From Desulfatitalea sp. BRH_c12 (lineage in GTDB: Bacteria; Desulfobacterota; Desulfobacteria; Desulfobacterales; Desulfosarcinaceae): DNA of 41,819 bases. The stretch is from positions 1 through 41,819 of the forward strand of contig LADR01000027.1 of assembly GCA_000961655.1 (NCBI GenBank). The letters run 5' to 3'. The notes beneath the pieces were generated by a model that worked only from the letters and a program-made list of their open reading frames with translations, was not told the origin of the DNA and ran no database searches. Shown here piece after piece: positions 1-29,406 of this stretch. Made by a program: the position numbers and the translations under genes. The first letter of the stretch is position 1, and each line of letters begins with the position of its first letter.

Positions 1-199
1 GGGCGTGTTGTCCGCGCCACACGCCATTTCGCTCAAGTGAGACTAAAGGTGTGCGTGGGGTCGGGCCGCAAACTCGCTGGCGCTCAAACAGTGCGGCCCA
101 AACACCCTACGCACACCTAAGTCTCACTAAAGCTCATGGCTGACTGTGGCGCGGACAACACGCCCGGCTCACCTCACTACGTGCCAATCCCGAAAGTTG
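1..199. repeat. R1 palindromic repeat, copy 1 (left end outside the window)
   Basis: This is a nested long palindrome. The outer arms at 1-21 and 145-165 are perfectly complementary over 21 bp (core TTGTCCGCGCCACA). A middle arm pair (about 38-57 with 110-128) carries the motif GTGAGACT, and an inner pair at 63-70 and 92-99 is GGGCCGCA/TGCGGCCC. The right end is CCCGAAAGTTG (189-199), the terminal motif shared with the copies at 12097 and 14239. There is no coding capacity. It lies just beyond the 3' end of the ycgN-like gene. The left terminus lies before the window. Confidence 0.85.
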
Positions 200-256
200 C
201 GTTAATTATCTGGAATCGTCGCTCAGGCTGTAGAGGCGAACCTAAACCATAATCAC

Positions 257-715
257 CTATGGTCTTTCCTTCATGCAGAAATTTTCCAGATCGTCGGGGT
301 GCACGAAGCGCGATGAAATGGTCCGATGGCGCACAGATATACCGGCTGTGTGAACCGACTCCGGGTCGCCGCTGATCAACGGGTGCCAGGCGGGCAGTTC
401 CTTGCCTTCAGCCACCAGTCGATAAGCGCAGGTTCGTGGCATCCAGCGCAACGAGATAATGTTGTCCGGTCGCAGCGCGATACAATCAGGAATGAGAATA
501 TGGCGCAGATCATAATCTGTGCAACGGCAGGTATCGCCGTCGAGCAAAGGGCAAGCCACCCACGTATAATAAACCTTTCCCGTGGTGGGATTTTTGAGTT
601 TTTCGAGGCAGCAGCGTCCACACCCGTCGCACAAGGATTCCCATTGCCCGGGGGTGAGCTGGTCCAGGGTTTTGTGCCGCCAAAAAGGATCGGCTGAATT
701 GGGCGCGAATTGCAT
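257..715 (-). CDS. YcgN-type (UPF0260) CxxCxxCC-family protein
   Basis: The 152-residue product matches the YcgN/UPF0260 family of small cytoplasmic proteins of unknown function related to the CxxCxxCC Zn/Fe-cluster group. Visible marks are the N-terminal FWRHKTLDQLTPGQWE stretch, the cysteine motif CDGCGRCCLEK, the CPLLDGDTCRCTDY block, and the conserved C-terminal half with WMPRTCAYRL and W-HPLISGDP. The start is placed at the ATG of MQFAPNS, because the open frame upstream runs into repeat R2 and shows no family similarity. No strong Shine-Dalgarno sequence is visible. The gene stands alone between repeat R1 (3' side) and repeat R2 (5' side). Metal binding is inferred from the cysteines; the biochemical role is unknown. 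Confidence 0.88.
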   Translation of the reverse strand: MQFAPNSADPFWRHKTLDQLTPGQWESLCDGCGRCCLEKLKNPTTGKVYYTWVACPLLDGDTCRCTDYDLRHILIPDCIALRPDNIISLRWMPRTCAYRLVAEGKELPAWHPLISGDPESVHTAGISVRHRTISSRFVHPDDLENFCMKERP

Positions 716-769
716 GGCGCTCAAGATATCAGGCGCGCGCGCTATGTCAAGGCTTGCATGCTGCGCGCA

Positions 770-1045
770 CAGGTAACCGCATTTGCGTATGGGCGGCATT
801 TCAGAAATGGAACAGCGGGGGCCGAACCTTGTGTTCGCCCGGTGCGAAAACGTCGGTCGATCCCTGGGGCGAACGGACACCTTGGTCCCGATGCCCGCTG
901 TCGGGGCGACCGGCGAAGCCCTGAATTGGGATCATCGCCCAAAATGGCGCGGCCATATTCTCCCGCACCTATGATTGCCTGGTGTGGTGGCCTTGCACCT
1001 GCGCCGGGCGGTCGCCCCTACAGGTGGAAGCCCTCATGACCGTCG
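770..1045 (+). repeat. R2 MITE-like repeat, copy 1 (right end degenerate)
   Basis: It begins CAGGTAACCGCATTTG (770-785), one base shorter than the terminal repeat of the intact copy at 14444. It keeps the order of internal blocks: TGGAACA, CGAACCTTGTG, GGGGCGA-GGACACC, GGGGCGACCGGCG, TGGCGCGGCC, CTCCCGCACC, TGATTGCCTGG and GTCGCCCCTACAGGTGG. The right inverted repeat cannot be recognised, so the end coordinate is approximate. The short open frames inside (710-1039, 783-974) are products of the repeat and are not genes. Confidence 0.75.
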
Positions 1046-1126
1046 GACACCTGCATTTTTGACACATCGCAAGACGGCCCTTACGTTGATGCATCTTTCA
1101 ACAGCCTGCTAGGGAGAAAGTGGGTT

Positions 1127-1972
1127 ATGAAAAAGCAGATAATCATCGTCGTTATCATTTTGACGGTTATGGCTGCCGGGTGCCGGTCCCTTTTGGGTAA
1201 AGACTCGTTGAGATTGTACGATCTTGAAGCGGATCGTACGTGGGTTGGCGAAGAGGCGCTCGACCGGTTGCGTGAAACCCGTATTGTCGTGGTCGGCGAG
1301 CAGCACACCAATGCGGCCCATCATCGGGCCCAACTGGCGGTTGTCCAGGCGCTGCACCAAGCAGGGAAGGAAATCGCCATCGGTTTGGAGATGTTCCGCC
1401 ATGAAAGCCAGGCCGATCTGGAACGGTGGGTAGCAGGCGCGATCGAGGAGCCGGACTTCAAGACTGTCTACTTGGACAATTGGAATTTCGATTGGGACCT
1501 TTACCGGCCGATCTTCTTGTATGCCCGCCAGCAAAACATTCCTATGCTGGGGTTGAATGTGCCTCGCAACTTGTCCAGCCAGGTCGCCCACCATGGTTTC
1601 AAGTCGCTTTCAGACGAACAGAGGGCGGGATTGCACGCGGTGGTCTGTGACGTCACGCCGCAGTACCGCGAGTTTATCCGCCAGGCCTACGGTGCCCATG
1701 CGCACGGGGCCATGCAGTTTGAAAACTTCTGCGAAGCGCAGCTGCTGTGGGATGTGTCCATGGCCAAAAATGCAGTCGATTATCTCAATGCGCATCCGGA
1801 AGCGACCCTGGTCGTGTTGGCCGGTAGCGGTCATGCGCGCAAGATGGGCATCCCCACGCAGGTGCAGAAACTGAGCGACTTGCCGGTGGTCGTGCTTTTG
1901 CCGGAAACCCATGGAATTTTCGAAGCGGACAACACCTCCGAGACGGATGCCGACTACCTGATCCGGCCCTGA
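1127..1972 (+). CDS. ChaN-like lipoprotein (haem-binding uptake/Tiki superfamily)
   Basis: This 281-residue protein has an N-terminal lipoprotein signal: Lys-rich MKKQ, a hydrophobic stretch, then a lipobox ending AAGC with the lipidated Cys at residue 19. The mature part matches the ChaN/PF04187 fold. It shows VVGEQHTN near residue 60, GLEMFRHESQ, the DNWNFDWDLYRPIFLYARQQNIPMLGLN region (described by its first and last motifs: a Trp-rich acidic strand, then a Gly-Leu-Asn turn) and LAGSGHARKMGIP near the C-terminus. Campylobacter ChaN binds haem and the related Tiki proteins are metallopeptidases; which role applies here is unknown. A purine-rich AGGGAGAAAG lies upstream of the ATG. The gene is monocistronic, downstream of an R2 repeat, and the protein is probably outer-membrane anchored facing the periplasm. 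Confidence 0.85.
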   Translation: MKKQIIIVVIILTVMAAGCRSLLGKDSLRLYDLEADRTWVGEEALDRLRETRIVVVGEQHTNAAHHRAQLAVVQALHQAGKEIAIGLEMFRHESQADLERWVAGAIEEPDFKTVYLDNWNFDWDLYRPIFLYARQQNIPMLGLNVPRNLSSQVAHHGFKSLSDEQRAGLHAVVCDVTPQYREFIRQAYGAHAHGAMQFENFCEAQLLWDVSMAKNAVDYLNAHPEATLVVLAGSGHARKMGIPTQVQKLSDLPVVVLLPETHGIFEADNTSETDADYLIRP

Positions 1973-2073
1973 TCGATCGGCTCATGCCTGGTGCGAAACG
2001 TTTCCGCGCGGCTGCAAACGCCCCGGCGTTCTGCGCGGTAGTACGCTCTGTGCAGGGCGGGGAGCCGAATATC

Positions 2074-2814
2074 CTATTCGGACCGGCGGCGTATCACGGG
2101 TTGAATCCAGCGGTTGTTCGCGCCTTCATAAAACCATTTGTCGGGGAAACCGCTGCGGCGGATGAAGGTAGGATTTTTAGACCAATCGATCAGCTTCTCA
2201 TAGGCTTCCTGAATTTTGAGAAAAGCACGCGCGTCCCCGCCCAGATCGGGATGGTGCTTTTTCACTTGGCGGCGGTACGCCTGTTTGATGCAGCCGTGCA
2301 TGTTGGCCGCGGTCAGTTCATCCGGACGAAGCTCCAGAACGATCAGGTTGCTTGCGCGTACGGACGGCAGGGCGAAAGAGACCGGAATGACGCGCTCTTT
2401 GGCTGCCACGGGCTTTCCGGCGTGATCCAGCAACCGTTGGGAGGCCAGGTAGCGCTTGTTGGTTCGGTTTCTCTCATTCCACCATTGGGTTCCCAGCATG
2501 TTGGACAAATCGCAAAAATCGTCGACCGGTTTTTTGACGGATGAACGGGGCAGCATATAGCTGAAAATCTGCTCACGGTCGTATGGCAGCACATCCATGA
2601 CGATGGCAAAATCCGTGAAATAGAAGGTGGCGTAGCGCGTATTCAGTGCGCGCAGCAATCCCGTCCGTCGATTGAGCGATGCCAGCAGCTGCTGTCTGCA
2701 AGCCATGGCGCAGTAGCGCCGGTGGCGTTTGGGCAGTTCACCGCCGCAGGCCAGGCACGTGCGGCGCGGTGCGGTATTAGGTACCGGCAGCATCTGGTGA
2801 TCGGCATTGAGCAT
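2074..2814 (-). CDS. J-domain protein with N-terminal zinc-finger-like motif
   Basis: The 246-residue protein has a C-terminal J domain: a helix with QAYRRQVKKH, the diagnostic HPD at residues 188-190 followed by LGG, and helix III with FLKIQEAYEKLIDW. DnaJ-type domains stimulate Hsp70 ATPase activity. The N-terminus has CLACGG...YCAMAC, four cysteines at 20, 23, 35 and 39 that look like a small zinc finger. The region between (about 55-165) matches nothing I recognise. A good Shine-Dalgarno (GGAGGGG) lies 8-9 bases before the ATG. No Gly/Phe-rich linker or DnaJ central zinc domain is present, so this is a specialised type III co-chaperone rather than DnaJ itself. Substrate unknown. Confidence 0.82.
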   Translation of the reverse strand: MLNADHQMLPVPNTAPRRTCLACGGELPKRHRRYCAMACRQQLLASLNRRTGLLRALNTRYATFYFTDFAIVMDVLPYDREQIFSYMLPRSSVKKPVDDFCDLSNMLGTQWWNERNRTNKRYLASQRLLDHAGKPVAAKERVIPVSFALPSVRASNLIVLELRPDELTAANMHGCIKQAYRRQVKKHHPDLGGDARAFLKIQEAYEKLIDWSKNPTFIRRSGFPDKWFYEGANNRWIQPVIRRRSE

Positions 2815-2972
2815 TTAACACCCCTCCGGGACGACTCGGATCCCGGTCAAATGAGTGAGGAATGAGGCATTCGACCCCGGGACGGTCTCACCCGCACTAT
2901 CCAAGCGAATTGAAAAAGCACTTTATGATTCCAATCCCTCGGTCATTTGTCAAGGCGGGTTGGACCCTTGTC
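2815..2972. other. Intergenic spacer between DnaJ-like gene and R2 copy 2
   Basis: Apart from the Shine-Dalgarno of the minus-strand J-domain gene, nothing is recognisable here. The short open frames crossing it have no ribosome site and run into the repeat. Confidence 0.5.
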
Positions 2973-3185
2973 CGGGGTAACCGCATTTGCGTATGGGCCG
3001 CACTAATGAAATGGAACATCGTTTTTCTTGGTCGAACCATGTGTACGCGCGGTGCGGAGATGTCCGTTGATACCCGGGGCGAATGGACACCTTGATGGTC
3101 GCCAGGCTTATGGTAGCTTTGCTCCCGCACCGGGCGACCGCCGGTCGCCCCACAGGTGGAACCCCTTGCGATAAAACGGTGAAAA
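2973..3185 (+). repeat. R2 MITE-like repeat, copy 2 (internally deleted)
   Basis: It starts CGGGGTAACCGCATTTG (2973-2989), differing from the intact terminus at one position. It then follows the R2 order (TGGGCCGCA, ATGGAACATCGTT, GGGGCGAATGGACACC, CTCCCGCACCGGGCGACC, CCACAGGTGGAACCCC). It lacks the central block of roughly 70-100 bp present in copies 1 and 3. The right terminal repeat is not recognisable, so the end is approximate. About 175 bp of unremarkable DNA follow before the next gene. Confidence 0.75.
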
Positions 3186-3360
3186 GGGTTCGGGCACGGT
3201 CAGCAGGAAGATATGGTTTCTCACCGACGGTACCCAATGGGGTGTTTTTAACGCTCAAACTGCAGGAAATCCTGTATTCCTAATTCTACCGGGCCGGGGT
3301 ATGTATCATAAGTTCTTAAATTATTCGCCAATTTCTTAAATACTTCGCCTAAAAGGAATA

Positions 3361-3549
3361 ATGCCATTGAAGATAATAATTAAGTGCGCATGGTGTCAGC
3401 TACTCATGGGGACCAAACACAGTGACACTTGGAAGAGTACAGCCCCGCCCGTGACCCACACAATATGCCCGTCTTGCCTCAAAAAGGTATCAGACACGTT
3501 ACCCTTGACGCGTTTGGACCAAATCGCTCCGCCACGACCTGCGGTTTAG
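3361..3549 (+). CDS. Small CxxC...CxxC protein, putative zinc-binding
   Basis: This 62-residue protein begins MPLKIIIKCAWCQLLMG and has a second pair of cysteines in VTHTICPSCLKK, giving Cys 9, 12, 36 and 39. Small proteins of this pattern (CAWC-x-x-MG followed by TH-ICP-C) are common in anaerobic Proteobacteria, often near signalling genes; the function is unknown and zinc binding is inferred. An AAAAGGAAT Shine-Dalgarno lies directly before the ATG. The gene is co-oriented with the hybrid histidine kinase about 310 bases downstream. The last 20 residues look like low-conservation tail. Confidence 0.7.
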   Translation: MPLKIIIKCAWCQLLMGTKHSDTWKSTAPPVTHTICPSCLKKVSDTLPLTRLDQIAPPRPAV

Positions 3550-3862
3550 ACTCTCGGTCTTACTTTCAGCCCGGTCTCTTTTCTCACCCACCCTGATCCG
3601 GGGAATATTTTTGTGTACATGTTACAGTCCATTGTCTCGGGAAAATGATCCATCACCCAGCCAAAGCATTGATCTCACCGCAATACGTTTTTACTGTATC
3701 ACGGCGCACGCGCGGCGACGGCAAAGATGTTTTACGGGTTCATCACGTTTTAACGTTCGAGTCAAACCTATTGAATTTGATAGTGGATCCACATGATATT
3801 CTTAAAGGCGTCCGTTGCAACTTGACCTGCCGTGCTAAAGCGAACAGACGACTCATGGTGCC
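3550..3862. other. Intergenic region before the hybrid kinase
   Basis: Two overlapping short open frames (3611-3796 and 3645-3866) lack ribosome sites and recognisable protein character. No clear promoter hexamers or hairpin were found. It probably holds the kinase promoter, but nothing specific can be pointed to. Confidence 0.45.
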
Positions 3863-6454
3863 ATGATGTTATACGAAGATTTCATCTATCCCGCCGATGC
3901 GAATAAATCCCGCGAACAACTGCTCCAGGAACTGGCCGTCTTGCGGGCCAACCGCCAATCAGGATCGGAAGCCGGGGCCGCATTGAGAGGGATTACCTGG
4001 GAAACCTTGAAGACTTTCGAAACGATCTATCGCAATGCCCCCGTGGGATTGTGCGTGTTGGATACCGATCTGCGCTATGTGCGCGTCAACGACCGTCTGG
4101 CAGCCATGACTGGCCTTGCGGTCGAAGCGCACATCGGCCGCACGGTTGCTGAAATCGTTCCGGATCTTTCAGCGGTGGCTGAACCAATGATGCGCCAGGT
4201 GATTCAAACCAGCCTTCCGGTACTCGGCGTCGAGGCGACGGGACGGACCGCGGCTGAGCCGGACATTCTTCGCACGTGGGTCTCGAACTGGGAGCCATTG
4301 AAAAACGCCGCCGGCACGGTCGTCGGTCTCAATGGGGTCATCCTGGAGATTACGGCGCAAAAGAGAGCCGAGGAGAATCTGCGTCAGCGAACCGCCGTGC
4401 TCGAGGGCATTAACCGGCTTTTCCAAAAAGCGTTGACCTGCCGGACCGAAGAGGAATTGAGCACTGTATGCCTGCGCGTAGCGCAAGCGGTCACCTCCAG
4501 CGCGTTCGGCTTTATCGCGGAATTGAACGATCAGAATCGTTTGAACGATCTGCGGATCAGTGATGCGGGCCTTGCGGTCTGCCGGATTGCATCGCCGGGC
4601 GACCGGCACGGCGTGACAGACGGATTTCCAATATACGGTCTCTACGGGCAGGTGGTGAGGGAGGGCAAGGGTTTCTACACCAACACGCCGGACGCTCACC
4701 CTGCATACGTCGGGTTGCCTCCAAACCATCCGCCGCTGCTCTCTTTTCTGGGAATGCCACTGGTTCATGACGACACGGTGGTGGGTGTTGTGGCACTGGC
4801 CAACCGACCGGGCGGCTACGGCGCGAAGGATTTGGAAGCATTGGAAATGCTGGCGCCGGCCATCGTTCAAGTGTTTCTGAATCAGCGGGCCGAGGCGCGA
4901 TCGCGCGCGGCCGAGGCGCGTTATCGCCGGATCATCGAGACCGCCGACGAGGGGATCTGGATTATCGATCATGAGCACAAGACCCTCTTTGCCAACACCA
5001 AGATGGCAGCGATGCTCGGTTGCAGTGTGGAAGCGTTGTCTGAAGGCTCGTTGTTCGATTTTATGGATGCACAAGGCCAATCGCTGGCCCGACAATATAT
5101 TGAACGCCGTCGGACAGGCATCGCCGAGCAGCATGATTTCAAGTTCAAGCGCAAGGATGGCTCAGATCTGTGGGCGTTGATTTCCACCAATCCTATTTTT
5201 GACGATAGCGGGCGCTATCAAGGCGCTTTGGCCATGCTCACCGACATCACGGATCGCAAGAAAATGGAGCAGTCGCTGCGGGAACTCACCGAGAGTCTGG
5301 AGCAGCGTGTGGCTGAACGGACCGAACTGGTCAAGGCGCGCTCAAAGCAGTTGCAGGCCCTGGCAGTAGAGCTGATCGCGGCCGAAGAACAGGAGCGCCA
5401 GCGGATTGCCGATTTCCTGCATGATGATCTGCAACAAATTCTGGCCTCGGCACGTATACAAGTGCAGCTGGCCGCTGAAAATTTATCCTTCGAGCCCATG
5501 CTGGTCAATGTGGAGCGGATGCTGGCCGAGTCGATCGCCAAATCGCGCCGCTTGTCGCACGACCTGAGTCCCGTGGTCTTGAACCATTCCGGTCTGATCG
5601 CTGCTTTGCAGTGGCTTTTCCGGCAGATGTTCGAGCAGTTCGGGCTGAATGTCCAGTTTGAACTGGGCGCAGAGCGGCCCTTTGAAAGTGCGCCCTTGAA
5701 GATTTTCCTGTTCCGCGCCGTGCAGGAACTGTTGTTCAACATCGTCAAGCACGCCGGCGTGAAAAGCGCCCGCGTCGCCCTTTCCACCACCACCACCAGT
5801 CTGATCGTCACGGTGAGCGATGTGGGACGGGGGTTCGATCCCGATTTTTTGGATACGTTCACTCCGTCGCCCGGTTTAGGCCTGTTGAGCTTGCGCGAGC
5901 GTGCCAGCTATATTGGAGGCCGTTTGGCCATCGAGAGTGCCGCAGGGCGCGGCAGCCGCTTCACGTTGACCGTTCCGCTCAAATTGGTGAATGCTGCTGA
6001 GCCGCAAGGGCACGACGCCGCCGCCCATCCGCGCCCTATGCTCGCGGAGCCTGCGCTGTCCGAGGAAATAGGGCCCATCCGCGTCATTTTTGCCGATGAC
6101 CACAAAGTGATGCGCAAAGGGTTGATCATGTTGATTGCCGCCCAACCCGATATTCAGGTGGTGGGTGAAGCTTCCAATGGACGGGAGGCGCTCGATCTTG
6201 CCCGCCAGCTCCGACCGGATGTGGTCGTGATGGATGTTTCCATGCCGGTGATGGACGGTATCGAGGCCACCCGGCGTATCAAGGCCGAAGTGCCCGACGT
6301 GCGCGTTATCGGGCTGTCCATGTACGAAGACGACCAGCTCGCGCGCACGATGCATCTGGCGGGGGCGGAGACTTTCGTGAGCAAATCAGCCTCGTCGGCC
6401 AAACTGCTCAAGGCGCTTTATGGGACAACCGGATCCAGACAGGCTGCCCGTTGA
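3863..6454 (+). CDS. Hybrid sensor histidine kinase, PAS-GAF-PAS-HisKA_3-HATPase-receiver
   Basis: This 863-residue soluble protein has no membrane segment. Domain order: PAS (about 52-165), GAF (about 185-345), second PAS (about 350-470), a short coiled coil (470-505), and a NarX/DegS-type dimerisation domain with phospho-acceptor His520 in DFLHDDLQQ. The HATPase domain follows, with N-box Asn626 ([10 protein letters not shown]), G-box DVGRG (653-657) and [10 protein letters not shown]. The C-terminus is a receiver: acidic pair Asp745-Asp746, phospho-acceptor Asp791 ([12 protein letters not shown]) and Lys841. The receiver resembles NarL/FixJ-type regulators but stops after the receiver fold, with no DNA-binding helix-turn-helix. 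It probably passes phosphate on through a separate regulator or acts by protein contact. The start has no obvious Shine-Dalgarno; a second ATG follows at once. The signal is unknown; the GAF domain suggests a small cytosolic ligand. Confidence 0.92.
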
Positions 6455-6489
6455 ACCGTTGCGCCGCCATGGCAATCTGGTTATCCAGC

Positions 6490-6558
6490 ACGGAGGAGGT
6501 GATCCGGGTGGGTGGTCCGCGCCACGTCAGCCATGCGATTTAGTGAGGCATAAGGGAT
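6490..6558 (-). repeat. R1 palindromic repeat, half copy
   Basis: The stretch reads GGAGGTGATCCGGGTGGGTG, GTCCGCGCCAC, then GTCAGCCATG and TTTAGTGAGGCATAAGG. This is the reverse complement of the right half of the full copy at 9931-10108, so only one arm remains and no hairpin can form. It lies 35 bases after the kinase stop codon. Confidence 0.75.
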
Positions 6559-6957
6559 AAATAAGACCTGAATACGGTCTATACACTATGGCAAATTCCG
6601 GCGTCCCGTTCTATCGTACAACGAATTGTGGTGCCGTAGTGCCATTATCCTGAAACCGCAATTTGCGAGTTATAGATCTTGTACTGGTTTTCGATATGTT
6701 CTCCATATGGCAACGGGTAGTCAAACTGTCAAAACCGTTTCATGGGTGCCAGCCCTCCTCCCCATGCCCTTTGTTACCAAGCGCGGGATAAACGCGCTTG
6801 CGCCCCGCACTCACCTGTCGAGTCTCTGGCAAAAATCCACCGGTCTTCATAAGAACATGAAGATGTCGGTACTCTTCGGCATCGATTCACTATTTTTGCC
6901 TTCCGGTACCCCGGAAGACCATGAATGTGTCAAGAAATCATTATAAAAGGAGCCTTG
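6559..6957. other. Intergenic region upstream of phaEC
   Basis: No convincing gene: an open frame at 6626-6946 lacks a ribosome site and looks non-coding. A small hairpin CAAGCGCG/CGCGCTTG (6778-6800, 7-base loop) and a shorter TTCCGG/CCGGAA stem near 6903-6918 are present. The phaEC promoter must lie here, but no clear hexamer pair was recognised. Confidence 0.45.
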
Positions 6958-7506
6958 ATGAAAGAAGCAGAAAAAACAACACAGGATGGAATGCCCGGGC
7001 AGCCTTTCTTCGACTATTGGCAGTCCTGGTATGAAAAGGAGTGGAAGCCTTTTTTCAACATGCCGCAATTCGGAATGACGCGCTATTATCAGGAGCACAC
7101 CAACCAGAACATAGACAAATACTATGAACTGCAAGCGATGTTGACCGAATTTTCCAGCCTGCTCTGCCAGCCTATTGAAAAATCGTTCCAAGCTGTCGGC
7201 GCCGACGTTTTCTCAGCAGGCGCGCAGGATGGGAAGGCGGATGCAGGTAAAGCCTATTACTCCAAATGGATCTCCGCGCTGGAAAAAGAGTATATGACGC
7301 TTTTCCGGTCCACTGAATATGTCGGCTGCCTCAACAAAGCCATGAAAACACTCAATGACTTCATTATCTCGCGTCAGACGGTTTTGGAAGATATGCTGAA
7401 GTTGCTGCCCATTCCGACCAACAGCGAGATGGATGGATTGTACAAAGAGCTCTATGAATTGAAAAAGCGTGTACGCAATCTGGAAAAAGAGCAAGTCCAG
7501 CAGTAA
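6958..7506 (+). CDS. phaE: Class III PHA synthase subunit PhaE (short form)
   Basis: This 182-residue protein sits directly upstream of phaC. It has the PhaE hallmarks: an aromatic-rich N-terminus (FFDYWQSWYEKEWKPFFNMP), a helical middle, and a conserved C-terminal coiled coil (ELYELKKRVRNLEKEQ). PhaE has no catalytic residues and forms the active class III synthase complex with PhaC at the granule surface. The start is the ATG at 6958, preceded by AAAAGGAG six bases away; the in-frame upstream codons have no ribosome site. The classical Allochromatium PhaE is around 350 residues, so this is about half-length, apparently lacking much of the variable central part. It is followed by phaC after a 56-base gap. 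Confidence 0.83.
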   Translation: MKEAEKTTQDGMPGQPFFDYWQSWYEKEWKPFFNMPQFGMTRYYQEHTNQNIDKYYELQAMLTEFSSLLCQPIEKSFQAVGADVFSAGAQDGKADAGKAYYSKWISALEKEYMTLFRSTEYVGCLNKAMKTLNDFIISRQTVLEDMLKLLPIPTNSEMDGLYKELYELKKRVRNLEKEQVQQ

Positions 7507-7562
7507 TGATCCAACAACACTACAACCGCCGCCGGAAGGTGGCTGATCGTGGAGGTTCTCAC

Positions 7563-8789
7563 ATGGTCAATTCTCAAACCGCGGTGAACCCTTTTGCAAC
7601 CCGGTTGCTCGAGAAGTTTTCTCACGCGCAGCGCAAAATGCAGGACGGCGCGCGCAATGTTTTGGGATCCCTGGATACCCGCATCGCAGCCACCCCCTGC
7701 GATATCGTTTATACTGAAGACCGCGTCCGGCTCAAGCATTACCGGCCGGTCACCCCGCAACGCGTCAAAACCCCGGTTCTGATTACCTATGCTTTGATCA
7801 ACCGCGAAACCATGCTCGATCTGCAGCCCGGCCGCAGTGTGGTGCGCAGCTTTCTGGATAGGGGCGTGGATGTCTATATGATCGATTGGGGCACGCCCAC
7901 ACGCAAGGACCGCTATCTGACCATCGACGATCATGTCAACGGATACATGGACAGCATGGTCGATGTGGTGCGCCGCAGGACCCATTCCCAGCAGATCAAC
8001 CTGATGGGCATCTGCATGGGCGGCACGTTCAGCGTCATGTATGCGGCGATGCACCCGCACAAGGTCAAGAACCTGGTGACGACCGTATCGCCGACCAACT
8101 TCGACACCGAGCAGGGACTGCTGCATATCTGGTTGCGCGATATGGATGTCGATCATATGATCGAGGCCTTCGGCAACATCCCCGGCGATCTGCTCAATTT
8201 CGCTTTTCTACTGCTTAATCCGGCCCGCCTGATGGTCGACAAATATGTCGGGCTGTTGGACAATATCGAGGACAAAGCCTTCTTGGAGAACTTCGTGCGC
8301 ATGGAAAAGTGGATCTTCGACAGTCCGGATGTGCCCGGAGAGACTTTCCGGCAATTCATGAAAGACTGCTACCAGAAGAACTTGCTGATAAAAAATAAAA
8401 TGAAGCTCGGCGACCGGCGCGTCGATTTGAATAACCTGACCATGCCGCTGCTCAACTTTTATGGCCGCTTCGATCATCTGGTGCCGCCCGAGGCCTGCGA
8501 GCGCCTGGTGGAGGTCGTCCCCAGCAGGGATGCCACCAATATCTGCCTGGATACCGGCCACATCGGAATCTATGTGAGCAGCAAATGCCAGAAAGCATTT
8601 GCTCCCAAAATAGTAGAGTGGTTGACGGAACGGGAGATGCCGCCCAAGCCGAAAAGAAAACCGGAAAAGAAGGTACGTGCGCCCCAGCCGCAAAAGAACC
8701 TGTTTCACGAACAGGTGCCCATGGACATCGGGGCCACCCAGTTGGGTGTCGTCCCATCTGACAATCCTCAGCATGCGCAGAACGTCTGA
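7563..8789 (+). CDS. phaC: Class III poly(3-hydroxyalkanoate) synthase subunit PhaC
   Basis: The 408-residue alpha/beta-hydrolase-type polymerase joins (R)-3-hydroxyacyl-CoA units into polyhydroxyalkanoate. The catalytic triad is visible: Cys151 in the lipase-like box GICMGG, Asp304 in FYGRFDHLVP and His333 in DTGHIG. These lie two residues further along than in the Allochromatium vinosum enzyme. Length and the adjacent phaE place it in class III. The start at 7563 has GGAGG seven bases upstream; an in-frame ATG 57 bases earlier overlaps the phaE stop and has no ribosome site. The C-terminus carries an extra Lys/Pro-rich tail (about residues 360-378, PPKPKRKPEKK) beyond the catalytic domain. 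No reductase or thiolase gene is adjacent, so the monomer source is elsewhere. Confidence 0.93.
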   Translation: MVNSQTAVNPFATRLLEKFSHAQRKMQDGARNVLGSLDTRIAATPCDIVYTEDRVRLKHYRPVTPQRVKTPVLITYALINRETMLDLQPGRSVVRSFLDRGVDVYMIDWGTPTRKDRYLTIDDHVNGYMDSMVDVVRRRTHSQQINLMGICMGGTFSVMYAAMHPHKVKNLVTTVSPTNFDTEQGLLHIWLRDMDVDHMIEAFGNIPGDLLNFAFLLLNPARLMVDKYVGLLDNIEDKAFLENFVRMEKWIFDSPDVPGETFRQFMKDCYQKNLLIKNKMKLGDRRVDLNNLTMPLLNFYGRFDHLVPPEACERLVEVVPSRDATNICLDTGHIGIYVSSKCQKAFAPKIVEWLTEREMPPKPKRKPEKKVRAPQPQKNLFHEQVPMDIGATQLGVVPSDNPQHAQNV

Positions 8790-8812
8790 CGTTCTGTCGT
8801 TGAAGTACTTTT

Positions 8813-8843
8813 AAGTCCTCACGCGCTACGCGCGTGGGGACTT
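8813..8843. terminator. Bidirectional hairpin between convergent phaC and exchanger genes
   Basis: The arms 8813-8826 (AAGTCCTCACGCGC) and 8830-8843 (GCGCGTGGGGACTT) pair over 14 bp with one G-U, around a 3-base loop TAC. It lies 24 bases after the phaC stop and just before the stop codon of the opposing gene. No long T run follows, so intrinsic termination is likely but not certain. Confidence 0.7.
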
Positions 8844-8846
8844 GCC

Positions 8847-9821
8847 TTATGGCCGGAAAAGACTACTCACCAGGTAAGCGGTGTAACCGGCATAGCATAC
8901 CAGCAATAGCGCGCCTTCGTACCGGTTGATACGTCCGGCCCCCCGTCTGAAGCCATAGCCGATAAGAAAGAGAGAAATCGTCAGGATCCCCATGACCAGA
9001 ATGTCGCGGGAAAAGACTTCCGGCCCTACGGTCAACGGGTGAATGGTCCCCGCGATGCCTACCACCGCCAGGGTGTTGAACAGGTTGGAGCCCAGTATAT
9101 TGCCTAACGCGATGTCGTGTTCGCCCTTGCGCGCGGCAATGACCGACGATGCCAGTTCCGGCAGTGAGGTGCCCACGGCCACGATAGTCAGGCCGATGAT
9201 CAGGTCGCTGACACCGAGGCCATGCGCGATTTCAACGGCACCCCAAACCAGCAGGCGAGAGCTTGCAATCAGCAGGACCAACCCGGCTACGACCCAAAAA
9301 ACGGCCCTCCGGAGCGGCATGGCATGGACATCTAACTCCCGCACCATGTCGTTGCCGAGTGCGTCGTCCTTTTTTTGCATGCCGTTGCGGATAGTCCATG
9401 CCATGAGTCCCGCAAATACGCCCAGCAGAACGAACGCATCGACGCGGGTGATGGCGTTGTCATACACCTGCCATGCAGCCAGGATCGTAACGCCAGTGAG
9501 GATCGGCAACTCCTTGCGCAGCACCTGCGAATGCACGCTGATCGGACTGATCAGTGCCGTGACCCCCAGGATCAAAGCGATATTGGTGATGTTCGACCCA
9601 TAGGCGTTGCCTATCGCGATGCCCGGATTGCCCTGGGTGGCGGCCAGTGCGGATACCAGCATTTCGGGGGCCGACGTGCCGAAGCCGACGATCACCATTC
9701 CGATCAGCAACGGCGGCATCCCGAAATAGCGGGCGGTCGAAGCAGAGCCCTCCACGAAACGATCGGCGCTCCACACCAGCAGCGCCAAACCAAAAACCAC
9801 CGCAAGATAAGCGGTAATCAT
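8847..9821 (-). CDS. CaCA-family calcium/sodium (or cation) antiporter, YrbG-like
   Basis: This 324-residue integral membrane protein has the two inverted alpha repeats of the Ca2+:cation antiporter family: GFGTSAPEMLVSALAA followed by GNAYGSNITNIALILG in the first half, and AVGTSLPELASSVIAA followed by GNILGSNLFNTLAVVG in the second. The acidic residues in the two GTS-PE motifs form the ion site in family members. About ten membrane segments are expected, typical of YrbG. AAGGAG lies close before the ATG. It is transcribed convergently to phaC and is probably monocistronic. Exchange of Ca2+ for Na+ is the usual assignment, but ion specificity cannot be read from sequence. Confidence 0.92.
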   Translation of the reverse strand: MITAYLAVVFGLALLVWSADRFVEGSASTARYFGMPPLLIGMVIVGFGTSAPEMLVSALAATQGNPGIAIGNAYGSNITNIALILGVTALISPISVHSQVLRKELPILTGVTILAAWQVYDNAITRVDAFVLLGVFAGLMAWTIRNGMQKKDDALGNDMVRELDVHAMPLRRAVFWVVAGLVLLIASSRLLVWGAVEIAHGLGVSDLIIGLTIVAVGTSLPELASSVIAARKGEHDIALGNILGSNLFNTLAVVGIAGTIHPLTVGPEVFSRDILVMGILTISLFLIGYGFRRGAGRINRYEGALLLVCYAGYTAYLVSSLFRP

Positions 9822-9874
9822 AAGACTCCTTATGTCCTGCCGTCCATCCGGTCATTTTTTCATAATTGCATAAT

Positions 9875-10127
9875 CTGGTTATCCACTTCGGTCAAGTGAG
9901 ATACGGCGCGGGGGGACGTAGATAAACCCCGGTGATCCGGGTGGGTGGTCCGCGCCACCATCCATTCGATCAAGTGAGGCTATAAGGTGCGCTCCGGACG
10001 GGCCGCAAACTCGCTGCGCTCAAACAGTGCGGCCCCATGTCCTGCGCACACCTTATGCCTCACTAAATCTCATGGCTGACGCGGCGCAGACCACCCACCC
10101 GGATCACCTCCTCCGTGCCAATCCCGA
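9875..10127. repeat. R1 palindromic repeat, full-length copy
   Basis: It opens with the side block TTATCCACTTCGGTCAAGTG (9879-9898), which also occurs at 12195 and, reversed, near 29405. The outer arms 9931-9956 and 10083-10108 are complementary over 26 bp with one mismatch. A middle pair is centred on GTGAGGC/GCCTCAC (9974-9990 with 10049-10063), and an inner pair at 10000-10007 and 10028-10035 is GGGCCGCA/TGCGGCCC. It ends GTGCCAATCCCGAAA. A transcript through it could fold into a single ~180-nt hairpin. Confidence 0.85.
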
Positions 10128-10251
10128 AACGCCAATAATCGCTAGAGCGCACTGAATAACCAAATTGCATAGTTGCCATTTGCCTTGCCGGCTTAATATA
10201 GGGAAGCACAGAGTGTTGGCAATTGCTTATTCAAGGCGGTGCGTAGAATGA

Positions 10252-10272
10252 GGGCGAACACAAGGTTCGCCC
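10252..10272. terminator. Hairpin GGGCGAAC/GTTCGCCC, possible terminator or R2 fragment
   Basis: This perfect 8-bp stem with loop ACAAG lies about 60 bases past the stop of the minus-strand hypothetical gene. The same block (reversed) occurs inside R2 copies near 827-840 and 14508-14525, so it may be a repeat remnant reused as a terminator. There is no T run. The rest of 10134-10331 shows nothing recognisable. Confidence 0.45.
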
Positions 10273-10331
10273 ACACGGGTGAAGCGGGGTGCATGCAGGG
10301 GTAAATTATAATCTGAACTTTCACAAGACCA

Positions 10332-10757
10332 TTAAAAATTCAGCCACTGTTTCAAGCAAGTGGATTCCGTGCAATCGGGGGCCGTTTCCGGTTTCAGGCG
10401 GAACAATCCGACGCGAATGGAAACGCGTTCGGCCGTTCCCCAAGGCCACCACGCCACAAAGAGGACAATGTTTTCAATGGGATTTGAAAGAAAAAAACTC
10501 TGCCCCGGCATCAGCCCGAACTCTGACGTGATTGTGCGTGCAATCGGTGATTCCGTTTCCGAGGGTGATGAAAATTTTCGATGGTCTTCGAATTCCTTGA
10601 TCAGTGGATAGAAAACGAGCTCCGCATCCTGCTTTTCCAAGGTTATCAATGCCACGCGTCGTGTGTGATCCCACTCCCAGCAGGCATTATCCGGCATGTT
10701 CAAGCATATCTTGCCGCAGATGCCCTTAAAGGGGGCAAACTTTTCCGAATTTTCCAT
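10332..10757 (-). CDS. Conserved-looking hypothetical protein
   Basis: I do not recognise this 141-residue soluble protein. It has no signal peptide or membrane span. It contains two N-terminal cysteines (KGICGKICLNMP), a short acidic/aromatic stretch (CWEWDHTRRVALITLEKQDAELVFYPL) read as a beta-hairpin-like region, and an aliphatic/aromatic patch (IENIVLFVAWWPWG). The start has GGGAG five to eleven bases upstream. Codon use resembles the neighbours and no long competing frame exists, so it is probably a real gene, but the function is unknown. It sits between an R1 element and the HPP gene, 142 bases from the latter's stop. Confidence 0.55.
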   Translation of the reverse strand: MENSEKFAPFKGICGKICLNMPDNACWEWDHTRRVALITLEKQDAELVFYPLIKEFEDHRKFSSPSETESPIARTITSEFGLMPGQSFFLSNPIENIVLFVAWWPWGTAERVSIRVGLFRLKPETAPDCTESTCLKQWLNF

Positions 10758-10899
10758 TCCATTCTCCCAATCAAAAGGGTTTCAGAAACAGTATCGGCCT
10801 TGAACCACGAAACATTAGAGCGAATTGGGCAGGAAATGAGCATGGGCCTGGACGCGTCACTCCGGGGAGATCTTTCAACACACCAACCCGTGAGCGGCA

Positions 10900-11433
10900 T
10901 CACCAGAATTCAGGATAGCGCCTGTTTTTGGGAATGTTGTTGATGAGCAGGGCGATGAGCAGCATTACGGCCGCGCCCATCCCGACAGGCATCAGCACGT
11001 ACAGATAGCCGAGGTTGTGTACGCTCTCTCCGCCGATCACCGCAATCAAAGCGGTGGCCCCGCCCGGCGGGTGAAGGGTTTTGGTGGCATGCATCAAGAC
11101 GATGGCCGCGGCGACGGCCACCGCTGCCGCCAGCCACGGGTGTCCACCCAACAAACGCAAAGCCGTGACCCCCACGACGGCCGAAAGCAGGTGGCCGCCC
11201 ATCAGGTTGCGTGGTTGGGCCAGGGGGCTGCGCACGGCGCCGTATATGAGCACGGCCGAGGCGCCGAAGGAGCCGATGATCAGCATGTGCCCAAGAGGGT
11301 CCAGCATCTGAAAGTGGATCAGAGCGACCGCAGCCATGCCAAGCAGACTGCCGATGCCGGACCAGACGATTTCGACCGCCCCCACGCGCGGAGGGCTTTG
11401 GGTATGGCCGCGCATCTTCTCAAAATAGGTCAT
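10900..11433 (-). CDS. HPP-family integral membrane protein
   Basis: This 177-residue protein has four predicted membrane helices and the family signature HPPGGATALIA between helices, plus the conserved SFGASAVLIYG and SPLAQPRNLMGGHLLSA blocks (PF04982). The start at 11433 has AAAGGAGAG six to eight bases upstream; the longer frame would begin inside the neighbouring CBS gene. From recall, HPP proteins of cyanobacteria and chloroplasts transport nitrite, which fits a gene set that also holds a nitrate reductase operon, but transport here is inference. The CBS-domain gene lies 11 bases upstream in the same direction; HPP and CBS domains are often fused in other bacteria, which suggests the two proteins act together. 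Confidence 0.88.
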   Translation of the reverse strand: MTYFEKMRGHTQSPPRVGAVEIVWSGIGSLLGMAAVALIHFQMLDPLGHMLIIGSFGASAVLIYGAVRSPLAQPRNLMGGHLLSAVVGVTALRLLGGHPWLAAAVAVAAAIVLMHATKTLHPPGGATALIAVIGGESVHNLGYLYVLMPVGMGAAVMLLIALLINNIPKNRRYPEFW

Positions 11434-11444
11434 GCGCTCTCCTT

Positions 11445-12050
11445 TCAGCCGAGCATGCAATAGGAATTGACCAGATCAAGGCGGGTCACAATGCCGGCCG
11501 GGCGGCCGTCTTGGCCCACAATGGGCAGACGGTTGATCTTCTTTTCCATGAAAAGCCCTGCGATCTCGCCGACCGATATCTCAGCCGGGGCCGTGATGGC
11601 CGGCGCGGTCATGATATCGCCCACCCTACGATTGCGCAGCGGCAATGCCACGCATCCTTTGTTCTTCAGGCAATGGGCCACCACCTGCATGAAGGAGCCG
11701 CCACTGCCGGCCCCCATTTCAGCCATAAAGTCCTTTTCCGACACCACGCCTACCACTTTGCCGCCGGCATCGATGACAGGTGCGCCCGAAACGCCCTTGT
11801 CGGCCAGCAGTATGGCCGTCTGGATCAAATCCATGTCCACTGAAACGACATGCACGGGCGCGGACATGACATCGGCCGCTTTCAGCGCCTTGAGCATGCG
11901 GTCTTTGGCCAGGGCGTAGGCGATCTGGTACACCTGCTTGAAATCGGCTGGGGTGATGTCGATGTAGCCTTGCATGGCCTTCATGGCCTTGAGCACATCC
12001 TGTTCGGATATGTCCACCGGCCCGCATTCCCTGATGATGGATGATGTCAC
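11445..12050 (-). CDS. CBS-domain protein, partner of the HPP membrane protein
   Basis: The 201-residue protein has a helical N-terminal part (about 1-60), then two CBS modules. The first is MSAPVHVVSVDMDLIQTAILL (cut at about residue 85), ending with GVVSEKDFMAEM; the second is DIMTAPAITAPAEISVGEIA, ending with GIVTRLDLVNSY. Paired CBS domains bind adenine nucleotides and usually gate an attached enzyme or transporter, here probably the HPP protein encoded 11 bases downstream. I prefer the GTG at 12050, because AAGGAG lies eight bases before it. The in-frame ATG at 12095 has no good ribosome site and directly abuts the terminal motif of an R1 repeat at 12097. Confidence 0.85.
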   Translation of the reverse strand: MTSSIIRECGPVDISEQDVLKAMKAMQGYIDITPADFKQVYQIAYALAKDRMLKALKAADVMSAPVHVVSVDMDLIQTAILLADKGVSGAPVIDAGGKVVGVVSEKDFMAEMGAGSGGSFMQVVAHCLKNKGCVALPLRNRRVGDIMTAPAITAPAEISVGEIAGLFMEKKINRLPIVGQDGRPAGIVTRLDLVNSYCMLG

Positions 12051-12096
12051 TGCGTTATTCTCCTTGGTTATTGCTTTCGGGATTGGCTTATTCATT

Positions 12097-12186
12097 CAAC
12101 TTTCGGGTTCCAAACGTCGGTGATCCGGGCGTGTTGTCCGCTCCCCAAACCCGGATCACCTCACTATATGCCAATCCCGGAAGTTG
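12097..12186. repeat. R1 palindromic repeat, compact 90-bp copy
   Basis: The terminal inverted repeats are CAACTTTCGGG (12097-12107) and CCCGGAAGTTG (12176-12186), with one mismatch. The inner arms are GGTGATCCGGG (12119-12129) and CCCGGATCACC (12150-12160). The inner and middle stems of the long form are missing, so this is a reduced version. It sits one base before the alternative ATG of the CBS gene. Confidence 0.8.
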
Positions 12187-12193
12187 AGTTATT

Positions 12194-12316
12194 ATATTAT
12201 CCACTTCGGTCAAGTGAGATACGGGCCTGGGGTGACGTAGGAAAACCCCGGTGATCCGGGTGGGTGGTCCGCGCCACCACTCCACCCGGATCACCTCCTC
12301 CGTGCCAAGCCCGAAT
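12194..12316. repeat. R1 palindromic repeat, copy with short hairpin
   Basis: It begins with the side block TTATCCACTTCGGTCAAGTG (near 12195), then the perfectly paired arms GGTGATCCGGGTGG (12250-12263) and CCACCCGGATCACC (12282-12295), 14 bp with an 18-base loop, and ends CTCCTCCGTGCCAAGCCCGAA. It stands in tandem with the 90-bp copy just upstream. Confidence 0.8.
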
Positions 12317-12399
12317 ACACTTCGCCAGTTCGCTCCAGTAAGACACAGGGATGGGGTGTCACAAGAAGGTTACGTTGTCATTTTTAGAACCTTCAAAAA

Positions 12400-12489
12400 G
12401 CATGCACATAAAAGCGTCCAACATGGGGAAGTGAGCATCAAATCGACAGAATGCCTCCCTTTACACTTTAAACTTTACACTTAACACTT
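12400..12489 (-). repeat. R4 short interspersed repeat, copy 1
   Basis: Read on the minus strand it starts AAGTGTTAAGTGTAAAG, has an extra internal copy of the GTTTAAAGTGTAAAG motif, and continues GGGAGGCATTCTGTCG, TGATGCTCAC, CATGTTGGACGCTTTTATG and TGCATG. The same order is found at 29026-29104. No gene lies between 12051 and 12518; this gap is filled by R1 and R4 copies. Confidence 0.75.
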
Positions 12490-12518
12490 CCCGATCATTT
12501 ATTTAACCCACAATAAGC

Positions 12519-13547
12519 TCATGACCGGTATTTGTCGTGCAGTACTTTTGCCATCTCCTTGACGGCGGCAAAGGCGCGCTCCACAGTGCGTTCTTTGTCC
12601 GGGTTGACCAGGCAGCAGGTGGCCGGCGAAAGCATGGCGCGGTCGATAAGCTGTGCGCGATCGACCCCCTTGGCCTCTAAAATCCTCCAGACTTCTTCGA
12701 GTCGTTTAACCAATGAGGGGATCGCTTCCTGGGCGAACGCCTCGACACCCGTCGGCACGATGCCCCAGACGATAAGACCGCCCCGTTCGATAAACCTGCG
12801 GATGCCGGGAGCATAGGAAGCGAAAATTTCCGCATTGGTATAAACATCCAGCGACAGCACATCCAGATCGAGGTTGAGCAAAAAATCCCAATCCGGATTG
12901 CCGCACAAGTGGATGCCGCGGGGGCGGTCGACCTGAGCGAAGAACACATCCAGATCGTTTTTAGCCTTCAGGTCGCCATATCCCGACATGGCTGAAAACA
13001 GAAACTGCAGGCCCGGCTCGTCCACGAACATAAAGGCATTGGGATTGCGCTTTTGCAAACGGGCCAGTTGCACGTTGAGCCGTTTGGCCATGAACTCGAG
13101 CATGAACGGCCGCACCGTGTCATCGAAGAGAATGGGGCGCTCGTCCTGGTCTAATATGTTGAAGCCAAAGCTGATCGGACCTTCCAACTGCCCCCGGATG
13201 GCTGGCCGATCAGCCAGATCCATTGCGAGAAAACGATGGTAGACCGCCGAATAGGTCTCGCTGACATCGAAGAAGGTCGGATCGTCGAAGCGCAGCAGCG
13301 CTTCTTCGAGTTCTTCGGCGAATTTATCGATGGAAAAACGCAAGGTGCGCTTGTCCAGGTCCAGAACGATGCCGGGAAAATGCTCGGCGGCCTGTACGTA
13401 CATGTCTTCGTAGTAGTTGTAGTTAGGCAGCTGGGGCCAGAAGGGCACGTCCAGTGAGAGGGCTGTCTCGAGGGCGCGCGTCACATCCGTGTGCGGCATC
13501 ACCGCCATGGCGGTGGTCAGCAGGTTACCGGGGATTTTATGGGTCAT
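12519..13547 (-). CDS. MetE/UROD-superfamily protein, putative zinc methyltransferase
   Basis: The 342-residue single-domain TIM-barrel protein resembles the C-terminal half of cobalamin-independent methionine synthase and related corrinoid-type methyltransferases. Visible marks are DEPGL (176-180), the zinc-type motif HLCG with His213 and Cys215, and a late Cys311/Cys312 in LSPATCCLVNP, equivalent to the last zinc ligand of MetE. Such enzymes move methyl groups to thiols; the acceptor here is unknown, and the N-terminal half of MetE is absent. The start at 13547 follows GGAGGG by about nine bases. It lies 28 bases behind the DUF6448 gene in the same direction, so the two are probably one transcript. 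A uroporphyrinogen-decarboxylase role is unlikely given the zinc-type residues. Confidence 0.78.
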   Translation of the reverse strand: MTHKIPGNLLTTAMAVMPHTDVTRALETALSLDVPFWPQLPNYNYYEDMYVQAAEHFPGIVLDLDKRTLRFSIDKFAEELEEALLRFDDPTFFDVSETYSAVYHRFLAMDLADRPAIRGQLEGPISFGFNILDQDERPILFDDTVRPFMLEFMAKRLNVQLARLQKRNPNAFMFVDEPGLQFLFSAMSGYGDLKAKNDLDVFFAQVDRPRGIHLCGNPDWDFLLNLDLDVLSLDVYTNAEIFASYAPGIRRFIERGGLIVWGIVPTGVEAFAQEAIPSLVKRLEEVWRILEAKGVDRAQLIDRAMLSPATCCLVNPDKERTVERAFAAVKEMAKVLHDKYRS

Positions 13548-13575
13548 GGTCGGGCCCTCCAGGCGATGAGAAGGA

Positions 13576-14175
13576 TTAGTGCGCACTATGGTTGCTGGGA
13601 TCAGATACAATGGCGCTGTGGATGGCCTCGACGAAGTGCATGTAGATCACGTACGCTTCAACAAACGCGCGACCCGCCGCCACGCTCTGGTCCTTGTTCT
13701 TTTCGGCTGCCAGCGCCTTATTGAATTTTTCCCGGACGGCATGCCCCATGTGGCGGTTGATATCGTGGAGCATCTGATCGGCCGAGCCGGCAGCCAGCGC
13801 ATTGTCGGCCATAGCCACGATGGGTTCCACAGGCGCGTCTTTGATGCCGGTGAACGGCGCGCCTTCCCCCAGACGGTGCAGGCGAATAAGTGTTTCGAGA
13901 AAGTATTGTTCAGCCACGTCCTGGGCCTCGGGACCCTTGGTGCGGACGGTGACGGCCTTGGCGAATGCGTTTTTGATTTCCCCTTCGTTCTCCTTCTTGA
14001 CCCATTTGAGGACAGGCGTCAGGTCGCCTTTTTCCAGCGCGGCTTTGGCCTCGGGAATGATGGGCCCATTCATGGTATCACAATGGGCAAAAACGGTGTT
14101 TGCCACGACCGCCGAGGCAATCAGTCCCACTGCCGCATACAGGATGCCAGTCATCTTTGATTTTTTGTGTTTCAT
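13576..14175 (-). CDS. DUF6448-like exported protein
   Basis: This 199-residue protein has a clear N-terminal export signal: Lys-rich MKHKKSK, a hydrophobic segment, and a likely cleavage after VFA, so the mature chain starts AHCDTMNGPII. The mature part is helical, with LTPVLKWVKKENEGEIKNAF (near residue 60), DINRHMGHAVREKF and a His-rich C-terminus (SNHSAH). The AHCDT-GP start and VLKWV block match the DUF6448 family as I recall it. Its function is unknown; the conserved His and Cys near the mature N-terminus could bind metal. GGAGG lies nine bases before the ATG. It leads a two-gene unit with the MetE-like gene. Confidence 0.78.
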   Translation of the reverse strand: MKHKKSKMTGILYAAVGLIASAVVANTVFAHCDTMNGPIIPEAKAALEKGDLTPVLKWVKKENEGEIKNAFAKAVTVRTKGPEAQDVAEQYFLETLIRLHRLGEGAPFTGIKDAPVEPIVAMADNALAAGSADQMLHDINRHMGHAVREKFNKALAAEKNKDQSVAAGRAFVEAYVIYMHFVEAIHSAIVSDPSNHSAH

Positions 14176-14238
14176 GATAAAATCCTCCATTGATTTTAGC
14201 AACATGCGTGAACGTGAAGTTCTTTTAAGTTAATTGTT

Positions 14239-14377
14239 CAACTTTCGGGTTCCAAACGCCGGTAATCCGGTCGGGTGGTCCGCGCCGCACGCCATTTGCC
14301 TCACTAAAATCTCATGGCTGACTGTGGCGCGGACCACCCGACCGGATTACCTCACTACGTACCAATCCCGAAAGTTG
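14239..14377. repeat. R1 palindromic repeat, 139-bp copy with both termini
   Basis: Perfect 11-bp terminal inverted repeats CAACTTTCGGG (14239-14249) and CCCGAAAGTTG (14367-14377) enclose perfectly complementary 26-bp arms at 14261-14286 and 14326-14351. The arm sequence differs at several positions from other copies (for example GGTAATCCGGTCGG against GGTGATCCGGGTGG), yet both arms changed together. The loop keeps CTCACTAAAATCTCATGGCTG. Confidence 0.88.
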
Positions 14378-14433
14378 GATTAATTATATGCGGGGTGCGA
14401 TGGGAAGTCCTTGCCTTAAGTCAATCGGCAACA

Positions 14434-29276: not shown

Positions 29277-29304
29277 ATGCGGTTGGCACGCAATTAGGTG
29301 ATTT

Positions 29305-29406
29305 GGGTGGCGTGGTTGCGCGGACCACCCGCCCGGATCACCCCGGGGTTTTGACTTTTTTACGTCACCCTACACCCGTATCTCACTTGATCGAAGTGTG
29401 GATAAC
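29305..29406 (-). repeat. R1 palindromic repeat, half copy
   Basis: Reverse-complemented it reads GGTTATCCACTTCGATCAAG, TGAGATACGGG, GGGTGACGTA, CCCCGG, GGTGATCCGGGCGGGTGGTC and CGCGC. This is the left side block plus one arm of the full copy at 9875. The second arm is missing. It ends about 50 bases before livG. Confidence 0.72.

Follow-up and report, generated by a model that had tools for sequence, protein, structure and literature searches.

Among the miniature inverted-repeat transposable elements (MITEs) of bacteria that carry long stem-loops, some are transcribed RNA motifs with a role in mRNA regulation, according to PMC2229807. For the repetitive extragenic palindromes (REPs), PMC3733652 shows complementary changes on the two sides of the stem and describes degenerate forms of the GTAG tag that include GYAG. 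As for how stems come to match, two further papers report multi-base compensatory changes by replication template switching in RNA genes (PMC8794818) and arm homogenisation with spacer inversion (PMC8604942). We describe here a family of hairpin repeats, R1, found in contig LADR01000027.1 (C47) of the 6.0-Mb draft genome of Desulfatitalea sp. BRH_c12 (genome G000); the window analysed is this whole contig of 41,819 nt. In keeping with this genus, the HpaB-like protein encoded in the window shares 91% identity with its counterpart in Desulfatitalea sp. UBA4791 (L285). Scattered hairpins whose variable arms largely match each other within a copy, and which recur in related bacteria, suggest a new mobile structured element.

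With four blastn queries, for each of which 40 of 209-311 candidates were scored, at least 108 merged places were found in the genome, spread over many contigs, and 106 of them were extracted for analysis. These copy numbers are lower bounds, the best 25-40 of 209-324 candidates having been scored per search. The original prediction, made on part of the window, had described five hairpin stretches with a common core; the five exist as described and share the core, and the family is larger than was then noted. The dispersal of the copies over many contigs goes against an origin in one recent tandem duplication. The inner hairpin, of about 180 nt, consists of a variable outer stem, two asymmetric internal boxes, a middle stem and a conserved apex. 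The common core reads GGTGATCCGGG(Y)G(K)GT(K)GTCCGCGCC, followed by the box ACACGCC, the middle stem, the tip GGGCCGCAAACTCGCTG(G)CGCTCAAACAGTGCGGCCC and the arms that lead back. In compact copies, which coexist with long ones as had been proposed, the tip is missing; A-form elements of 58-59 nt without the GTCCGCGCC core exist as well. The view of one family with a single pair of ends is not supported, as at least three end types (A, B and C), each with imperfect terminal inverted repeats, surround the one core in the own genome. The termini named at first, CAACTTTCGGG/CCCGAAAGTTG, are those of type A only: they apply to 12095-12188, to 14237-14379 and, for the right end, to 1-199, and they do not apply to 9873-10162 and 12197-12316. 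The copy at C30:12962 is a hybrid with an A end on the left and a B end on the right.

Outer arms vary between copies yet pair within most copies. Mean identity between copies, taken at fixed offsets in up to 15 copies per genome, is 0.52-0.68 for the left outer arm against 0.78-0.92 for the middle stem plus tip. In the window, the self-pairing of arms that had been predicted amounts to 21/21 (1-21 with 145-165), 25/26 (9931-9956 with 10083-10108) and 28/29 bases (14261-14289 with 14323-14351). Covariation was analysed on an alignment of 40 copies from eight genomes of the genus, because the middle stem escaped RNAalifold when only own-genome copies were aligned. In this alignment 92.2% of 1738 cells pair, against 71.7% after shuffling, and 35 of the 44 pairs contain double changes (26.4 shuffled). 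Double-changed cells number 364 against 106.6 shuffled, with a score of 0.545 against 0.185; the stems covary, as those of structured RNAs do. None of 500 shuffles matches any of the five covariation measures, and sliding the partners by 1-3 columns yields 55-97 double-changed cells. At helix 1, the outer stem, 9 one-sided cells are found versus 189 double-changed ones.

The consensus structure was derived from the same 40-copy alignment, by which covariation is favoured; swapping arms between copies within a genome is a test independent of structure. At the outer stem, own arms are on average better than swapped ones in G000, G001, G005, G007, G009 and G010 (p <= 0.0022), with a p of 0.053 in G002. 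At the middle stem p is below 0.04 in six of seven genomes (G001, 0.12). These arm tests include 59 of 60 copies from relatives, one being too close to a contig end. Random, unpaired arm differences are thus not what the copies display, though one-arm mismatches also occur, and the hairpin itself is what is kept, as had been claimed.

The design extends well beyond the host genome. Among 30 genomes of the family, the type A query had matches in the own genome alone, and a long type B query matched the own genome and eight of the ten other genomes of the genus, with 0 of 19 in other genera; relatives match mainly in the inner part. The 60 copies fetched from relatives have the same design, different ends and different outer stems. 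At E <= 1e-5, a covariance model (CM R1) built from the 40 aligned copies found matches in 58 of the 389 genomes examined in the class, with seven candidates scored per genome. Besides the own genome, these take in nine of the ten other genomes of the genus, two genomes from a different family, which score up to 167 bits, and some with weaker scores; nothing was found at E <= 0.01 in a 1.18-Mb control of 77 other loci. In other families, a score of 50-83 bits is not proof alone, as true copies read on the wrong strand reach 38-73 bits. An apical motif is located at the apex in 18 of 20 returned loci from six families (L421 and L428 are without it) and has 0 matches in the 1.18-Mb control; the pattern was written after the sequences were seen and allows alternatives at five letters. 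Fifteen of the 18 loci carry the strict form AAACTCGC-n-GCTCA(A/G)ACAGT. The mini-stem of the apex changes on both sides between families (GC/GC, GCC/GGC, GCCC/GGGC), and the apex is retained across the six families while stems are replaced.

In agreement with the initial impression, no named family could be assigned to R1. The window contains 0 Rfam matches above the gathering score, and in seven copy-bearing loci five Rfam matches were obtained, each to a microRNA hairpin family and far under the gathering score. The exact core pattern gave 0 matches in genome-contig and viral-contig collections, where own or near genomes may be missing. Literature searches aimed at the apical motif, in six spellings, and at intergenic repeats of Desulfobacter found no paper; of the 8 papers listed out of 10,999 for repeats in Desulfatitalea, none was relevant by its title, and a word search of PMC2267715 returned no mention of Desulf* or Geobacter. 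As a separate observation, the copies L358 (G010) and L402 (G002) are 99.7% identical with their flanks over 651 bases in genomes of different species, another orthologous pair of these two genomes being 88% identical; a recent transfer is possible.

Direct repeats flank the elements. In 33 A and 18 B copies, the best z-scores against shuffled partners are 8.6 and 9.3 over 294 settings of offset and length. The target-site duplications of A and B are of roughly 6-10 nt and often inexact. An example in the window is the 9-base repeat AATTGCATA at 9864-9872 and 10163-10171, on both sides of the type B copy 9873-10162, and another, outside it, is TTAAGTTA at C18:182445. Type C copies show flanking repeats of about 8-10 bases by eye. 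The direct repeats of A and B are far above chance, as after transposition. Contigs C47, C69, C22, C59, C31 and C38 of G000 end inside R1 copies, and the family therefore breaks the assembly.

Three of the five window copies first described were folded as RNA. For 14237-14379 and 12095-12188 both strands were used; for 9874-10162 the minus strand was folded whole and the plus strand over 9931-10078. Folding z-scores range from -4.7 to -12.3, and for every folded sequence 0 of 200 shuffles was equally stable. The window copies are collected in the table, together with the three end types.

Table. R1 copies in the window and end types of the family in the own genome
Feature	Position	Strand	Remarks
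Type A long copy with tip	1..199	+	left end truncated by contig start; CM R1 match 1-172, 147 bits
One-arm partial copy	6488..6555	-	96% complementary to 10051-10118
Type B long copy	9873..10162	+	TGGTTATCCACTTCGGTC-like left end; CM R1 match 9931-10107, 175 bits
Type A compact copy, tip deleted	12095..12188	+	CAACTTTCGGG/CCCGAAAGTTG ends
Type B compact copy	12197..12316	+	TGGTTATCCACTTCGGTC-like left end; right side runs on into B'-like end
Type A compact copy	14237..14379	+	TTAATT(G/A) flanks; fold z about -12 on either strand; CM R1 62 bits
Type B compact copy fused to REP-like GTAGGGTGGGCATTGCCCACC sequence	29296..29405	-	
Partial copy	30920..30959	-	30920-30951 97% complementary to 1-32
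End type A			left TTCAACTTTCGGG.. / right ..CCCGAAAGTTGAG
End type B			left TGGTTATCCACTTCGGTC.. / right ..CGAACTGGATAACCA
End type C			left CAGGGCAATCGCATGTAAA.. / right ..TTTACATGCGATTGCCCTG

We tentatively favour a reading of R1 as a MITE-borne hairpin whose folded minus strand, most likely an RNA, is functional and whose arms are re-matched by template switching. The element would spread as a non-autonomous MITE-like unit, moved by transposases. Between genes the hairpin would be transcribed, and its minus strand, 5'-..TTGGCACG..GNAGG-stem-apex-stem, would fold as RNA within transcripts; we infer a role for this folded strand, most likely as a processing or stability signal read via the apex. 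The sequence of the stem would be free provided that pairing holds. Template switching or conversion would later remove one-arm mutations or copy them to the opposite arm, and selection on fold and apex would preserve the resulting copies.

Orientation relative to genes favours RNA. The genes flanking 101 own copies (of the 106 extracted, five within the window sequence being skipped) lie on the element's minus strand in 99 cases and on its plus strand in 51 (p 0.0001), with 52 of 202 sides uncalled; the strand caller used was correct on 17 of 17 training genes. Gene pairs around own copies are minus/minus in 29 cases versus plus/plus in 8 (p 0.0008), with ratios of 13:6 for type A, 13:1 for type B and 3:1 for C and others. 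A cruder test based on open reading frames gave minus:plus counts of 35:18 on the left and 24:15 on the right. Copy orientation was also compared on the seven contigs with at least five copies, as a test of replication-strand bias as the source of the gene orientation bias: it is mixed on C24 (5:6), C26 (4:3) and C74 (5:3), and skewed on C34 (5:1), C35 (4:1), C47 (4:1) and C30 (2:6).

Mismatches suit both an RNA and a single-stranded DNA. With the left arm aligned to the reverse complement of the right, isolated arm mismatches on the plus strand comprise 54 A.C, 18 G.T and 143 transversions, and 37 A.C versus 17 G.T when equal contexts are merged (p 0.009); the minus strand thus has more G.U/G.T than A.C.

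Signs of both-arm changes come from relatives. In G001 a variable insert of 16-21 nt has arm lengths that agree within 2 nt in eight of nine copies (the ninth is unreadable), and its arms are exactly alike in sequence in three copies; independent indels are an unlikely source of this agreement. Among the 60 loci there are four cross-genome ortholog pairs, two of which were aligned. In L394 (G005) and L397 (G007) the flanks are collinear and the hairpin is reversed in place; in L375 and L389 a matched outer-stem change is found, the intergenic flanks having diverged. Re-matching and inversion are expected outcomes of template switching between inverted arms, and in the proposal favoured here both the length changes and the inversion would be due to template switching or conversion. 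Selection, a single-strand hairpin route and arm-to-arm conversion had all been put forward beforehand as causes. Conversion finds its signs in the G001 length changes and the one in-place inversion, selection in the conserved apex amid replaced stems, and the single-strand route keeps one sign, the minus-strand GNAG tag at the stem base described below.

Several observations weigh against the functional RNA just proposed. Fold stability is nearly equal on both strands, and promoter-like matches near window copies are at chance level (4 vs 2.6). The orientation bias of relatives is not significant (23 vs 15, p 0.26), with most flanks uncalled. An inversion in place would swap the transcribed strand, and L394 and L397 could instead be two independent insertions. 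A left arm has its one best partner in the right arm of its own copy in just 32 of 103 outer-stem tests, because copies are related. Rare alleles in the own genome are mostly uncompensated, with 21 one-arm changes, three matched doubles and one unmatched double, and speak against an immediate re-matching process. Mismatch counts are not independent, and strand-biased mutation could cause them; in own outer stems they are nearly even (A.C 7, G.T 5, unbiased alignment), and in the own-genome RNAalifold pair set, a method that favours G.U pairs, they are reversed (G.T 12 vs A.C 7). No transposase with R1 ends was found beside the six DDE_Tnp_1 and two Y1_Tnp genes of the own genome, other transposase families and the RAYTs (REP-associated tyrosine transposases) of relatives not having been searched; the REP-type transposase flanked by the same ends that had been envisaged was thus not encountered, one of the two Y1 genes lying amid its own, different REPs. 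The tag and the minus-strand excess of G.T over A.C would equally suit a single-stranded DNA substrate.

The close rival of the RNA reading is a giant REP-like element, quite possible in our judgement, in which the folded minus strand would be recognised as single-stranded DNA, by tag and hairpin, by a Y1/RAYT-like enzyme and would have no RNA function; the A, B and C ends would be MITE shells that captured or fused with the hairpin. The tag favours such a substrate. On the minus strand, the first stem base and the three bases before it read GNAG in 57 of 96 copies (GYAG 27, GTAG 9), against 40 of 3072 upstream control positions (1.3%; GTAG 0.2%, GYAG 0.4%) and 0 of 96 copies on the plus strand. 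The count covers the 96 of 105 copies with a readable stem base, and it is lowered because in many own copies the stem found reaches as far as the A or B ends. In 39 of the 96, the stem is preceded on the minus strand by a GCACG leader. With degenerate tags of the GYAG kind known for REPs, as cited above, these figures are in keeping with a REP-like element, as are the few one-sided changes at helix 1 and the little conserved sequence seen by eye in G005 and G007 copies outside the hairpin and its tagged side. However, the hairpin measures about 180 nt, not 20-40 nt, the A and B ends carry direct repeats, which Y1 insertion is not known to produce, the two Y1 genes of the own genome are without R1 ends, and the gene-linked orientation bias would have no obvious cause.

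A wider form of the RNA reading seems doubtful to us: R1 would belong to an order-wide class of mobile tagged hairpins, putatively non-coding RNAs, with near-private stems rewritten in both arms simultaneously and with tag and apical loop kept for binding, the stem serving as a copy-specific label that limits cross-pairing among the hundred or more copies per cell.

We regard as unlikely a purely mutational origin, namely neutral mobile palindromes with arms homogenised by replication template switching and no selected function. Template switching (PMC8794818) would be expected to yield the both-arm length changes and the in-place inversion, but the apex is kept across six families while stems are replaced, and arm copying would not maintain apex and internal boxes because these are asymmetric; the confinement of the tag to one strand and the gene orientation bias argue against it as well. 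A family of transcription terminators or insulators, to which very stable intergenic hairpins would be suited, is highly improbable, since minus/minus gene pairs exceed convergent ones 29 to 10 and terminator-like matches between 9800 and 14500 come close to the number in shuffled sequence (7 vs 5.6), two of the seven being short hairpins within the minus strand of type B copies.

Some further observations concern other repeats and genes. At L032 (G000:C68:12429-12800) a RAYT-like Y1 transposase is surrounded by numerous copies of its own REP, GGTGGGCAATGCCCACCCTAC, which several type B copies, for example at window 29283-29405, also have as their right end. The second Y1 transposase, L031 (G000:C24:118442-118684), has GAATTCGGGGGACAC-like flanks; by eye, the reading frames around it look Rhs/YD-repeat-like. 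It belongs perhaps to the TIRYT group of PMC3733652. Window 14583-14726 holds a 25-base perfect inverted pair (TGTAGGGGCGACCGGCGGTCGCCCG / CGGGCGACCGCCGGTCGCCCCTACA), and the same REP-like unit occurs as an insertion in the right arm of certain long type A copies (for example C13:39194 and C82:129653). A separate repeat family is represented by an inverted 85-base pair, 88% complementary and 12 kb apart, at window 29193-29277 and 41655-41739. Four loci of G000 (L112, L166, L190 and L243) carry an element of about 187-199 nt with TGGTTATGCACTTCGCTC-like ends, near those of type B, and an unrelated interior; the joint pattern of its two ends gives 164 matches at one mismatch or fewer. A candidate full-length C element, with a second C-type end about 1.5 kb away, was rejected: its distant end is part of an adjacent copy, and the gene in between reads as that of an ordinary, by eye patatin-like, protein. 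Window 17597-22703 contains narG/narH-like nitrate reductase genes (Pfam), the host genus being sulfate-reducing.

How both arms of a stem come to change together is an open question in the evolution of RNAs and palindromes. With at least 108 copies in one genome and orthologous copies in the genus, it becomes possible to measure how often one arm mutates, both arms are re-matched or the hairpin is inverted. Should tag and apex be binding signals, R1 would represent an unrecognised class of mobile hairpins in the Desulfobacterales, either a giant relative of REPs or an abundant structured RNA.

Compared with known systems, R1 resembles the bacterial MITEs with long stem-loops (ERIC/IRU, NEMIS/Correia, YPAL, RUP) in its general design, being short, dispersed and intergenic with inverted ends. 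Of the features of MITEs, terminal inverted repeats are present in A, B and C, and target-site duplications in A and B. Unlike ERIC, NEMIS, YPAL and RUP, R1 has several end types around one hairpin core, outer stems that are strongly variable yet paired within copies, and a design found in several families of one order. With REPs and bacterial interspersed mosaic elements (BIMEs) served by RAYTs it shares palindromic structure, dispersal and complementary stem changes, and a GNAG tag resembling theirs abuts its stem on one strand, but it is much longer, its tag is mostly GGAG or GCAG and seldom GTAG, and direct repeats surround the A and B shells. Hairpins of RNAs that template switching has re-matched likewise show multi-base compensatory changes, and the mechanism can create and repair stems (PMC8794818); the histories described there are those of RNA genes, whereas R1 is mobile, present in many copies and different in its stems from copy to copy, with one inversion in place. 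R1 has no Rfam family, a tag but not a size like that of REPs, and MITE-like ends and duplications, and we therefore place it as a new form of MITE-borne or REP-like stem-loop repeats.

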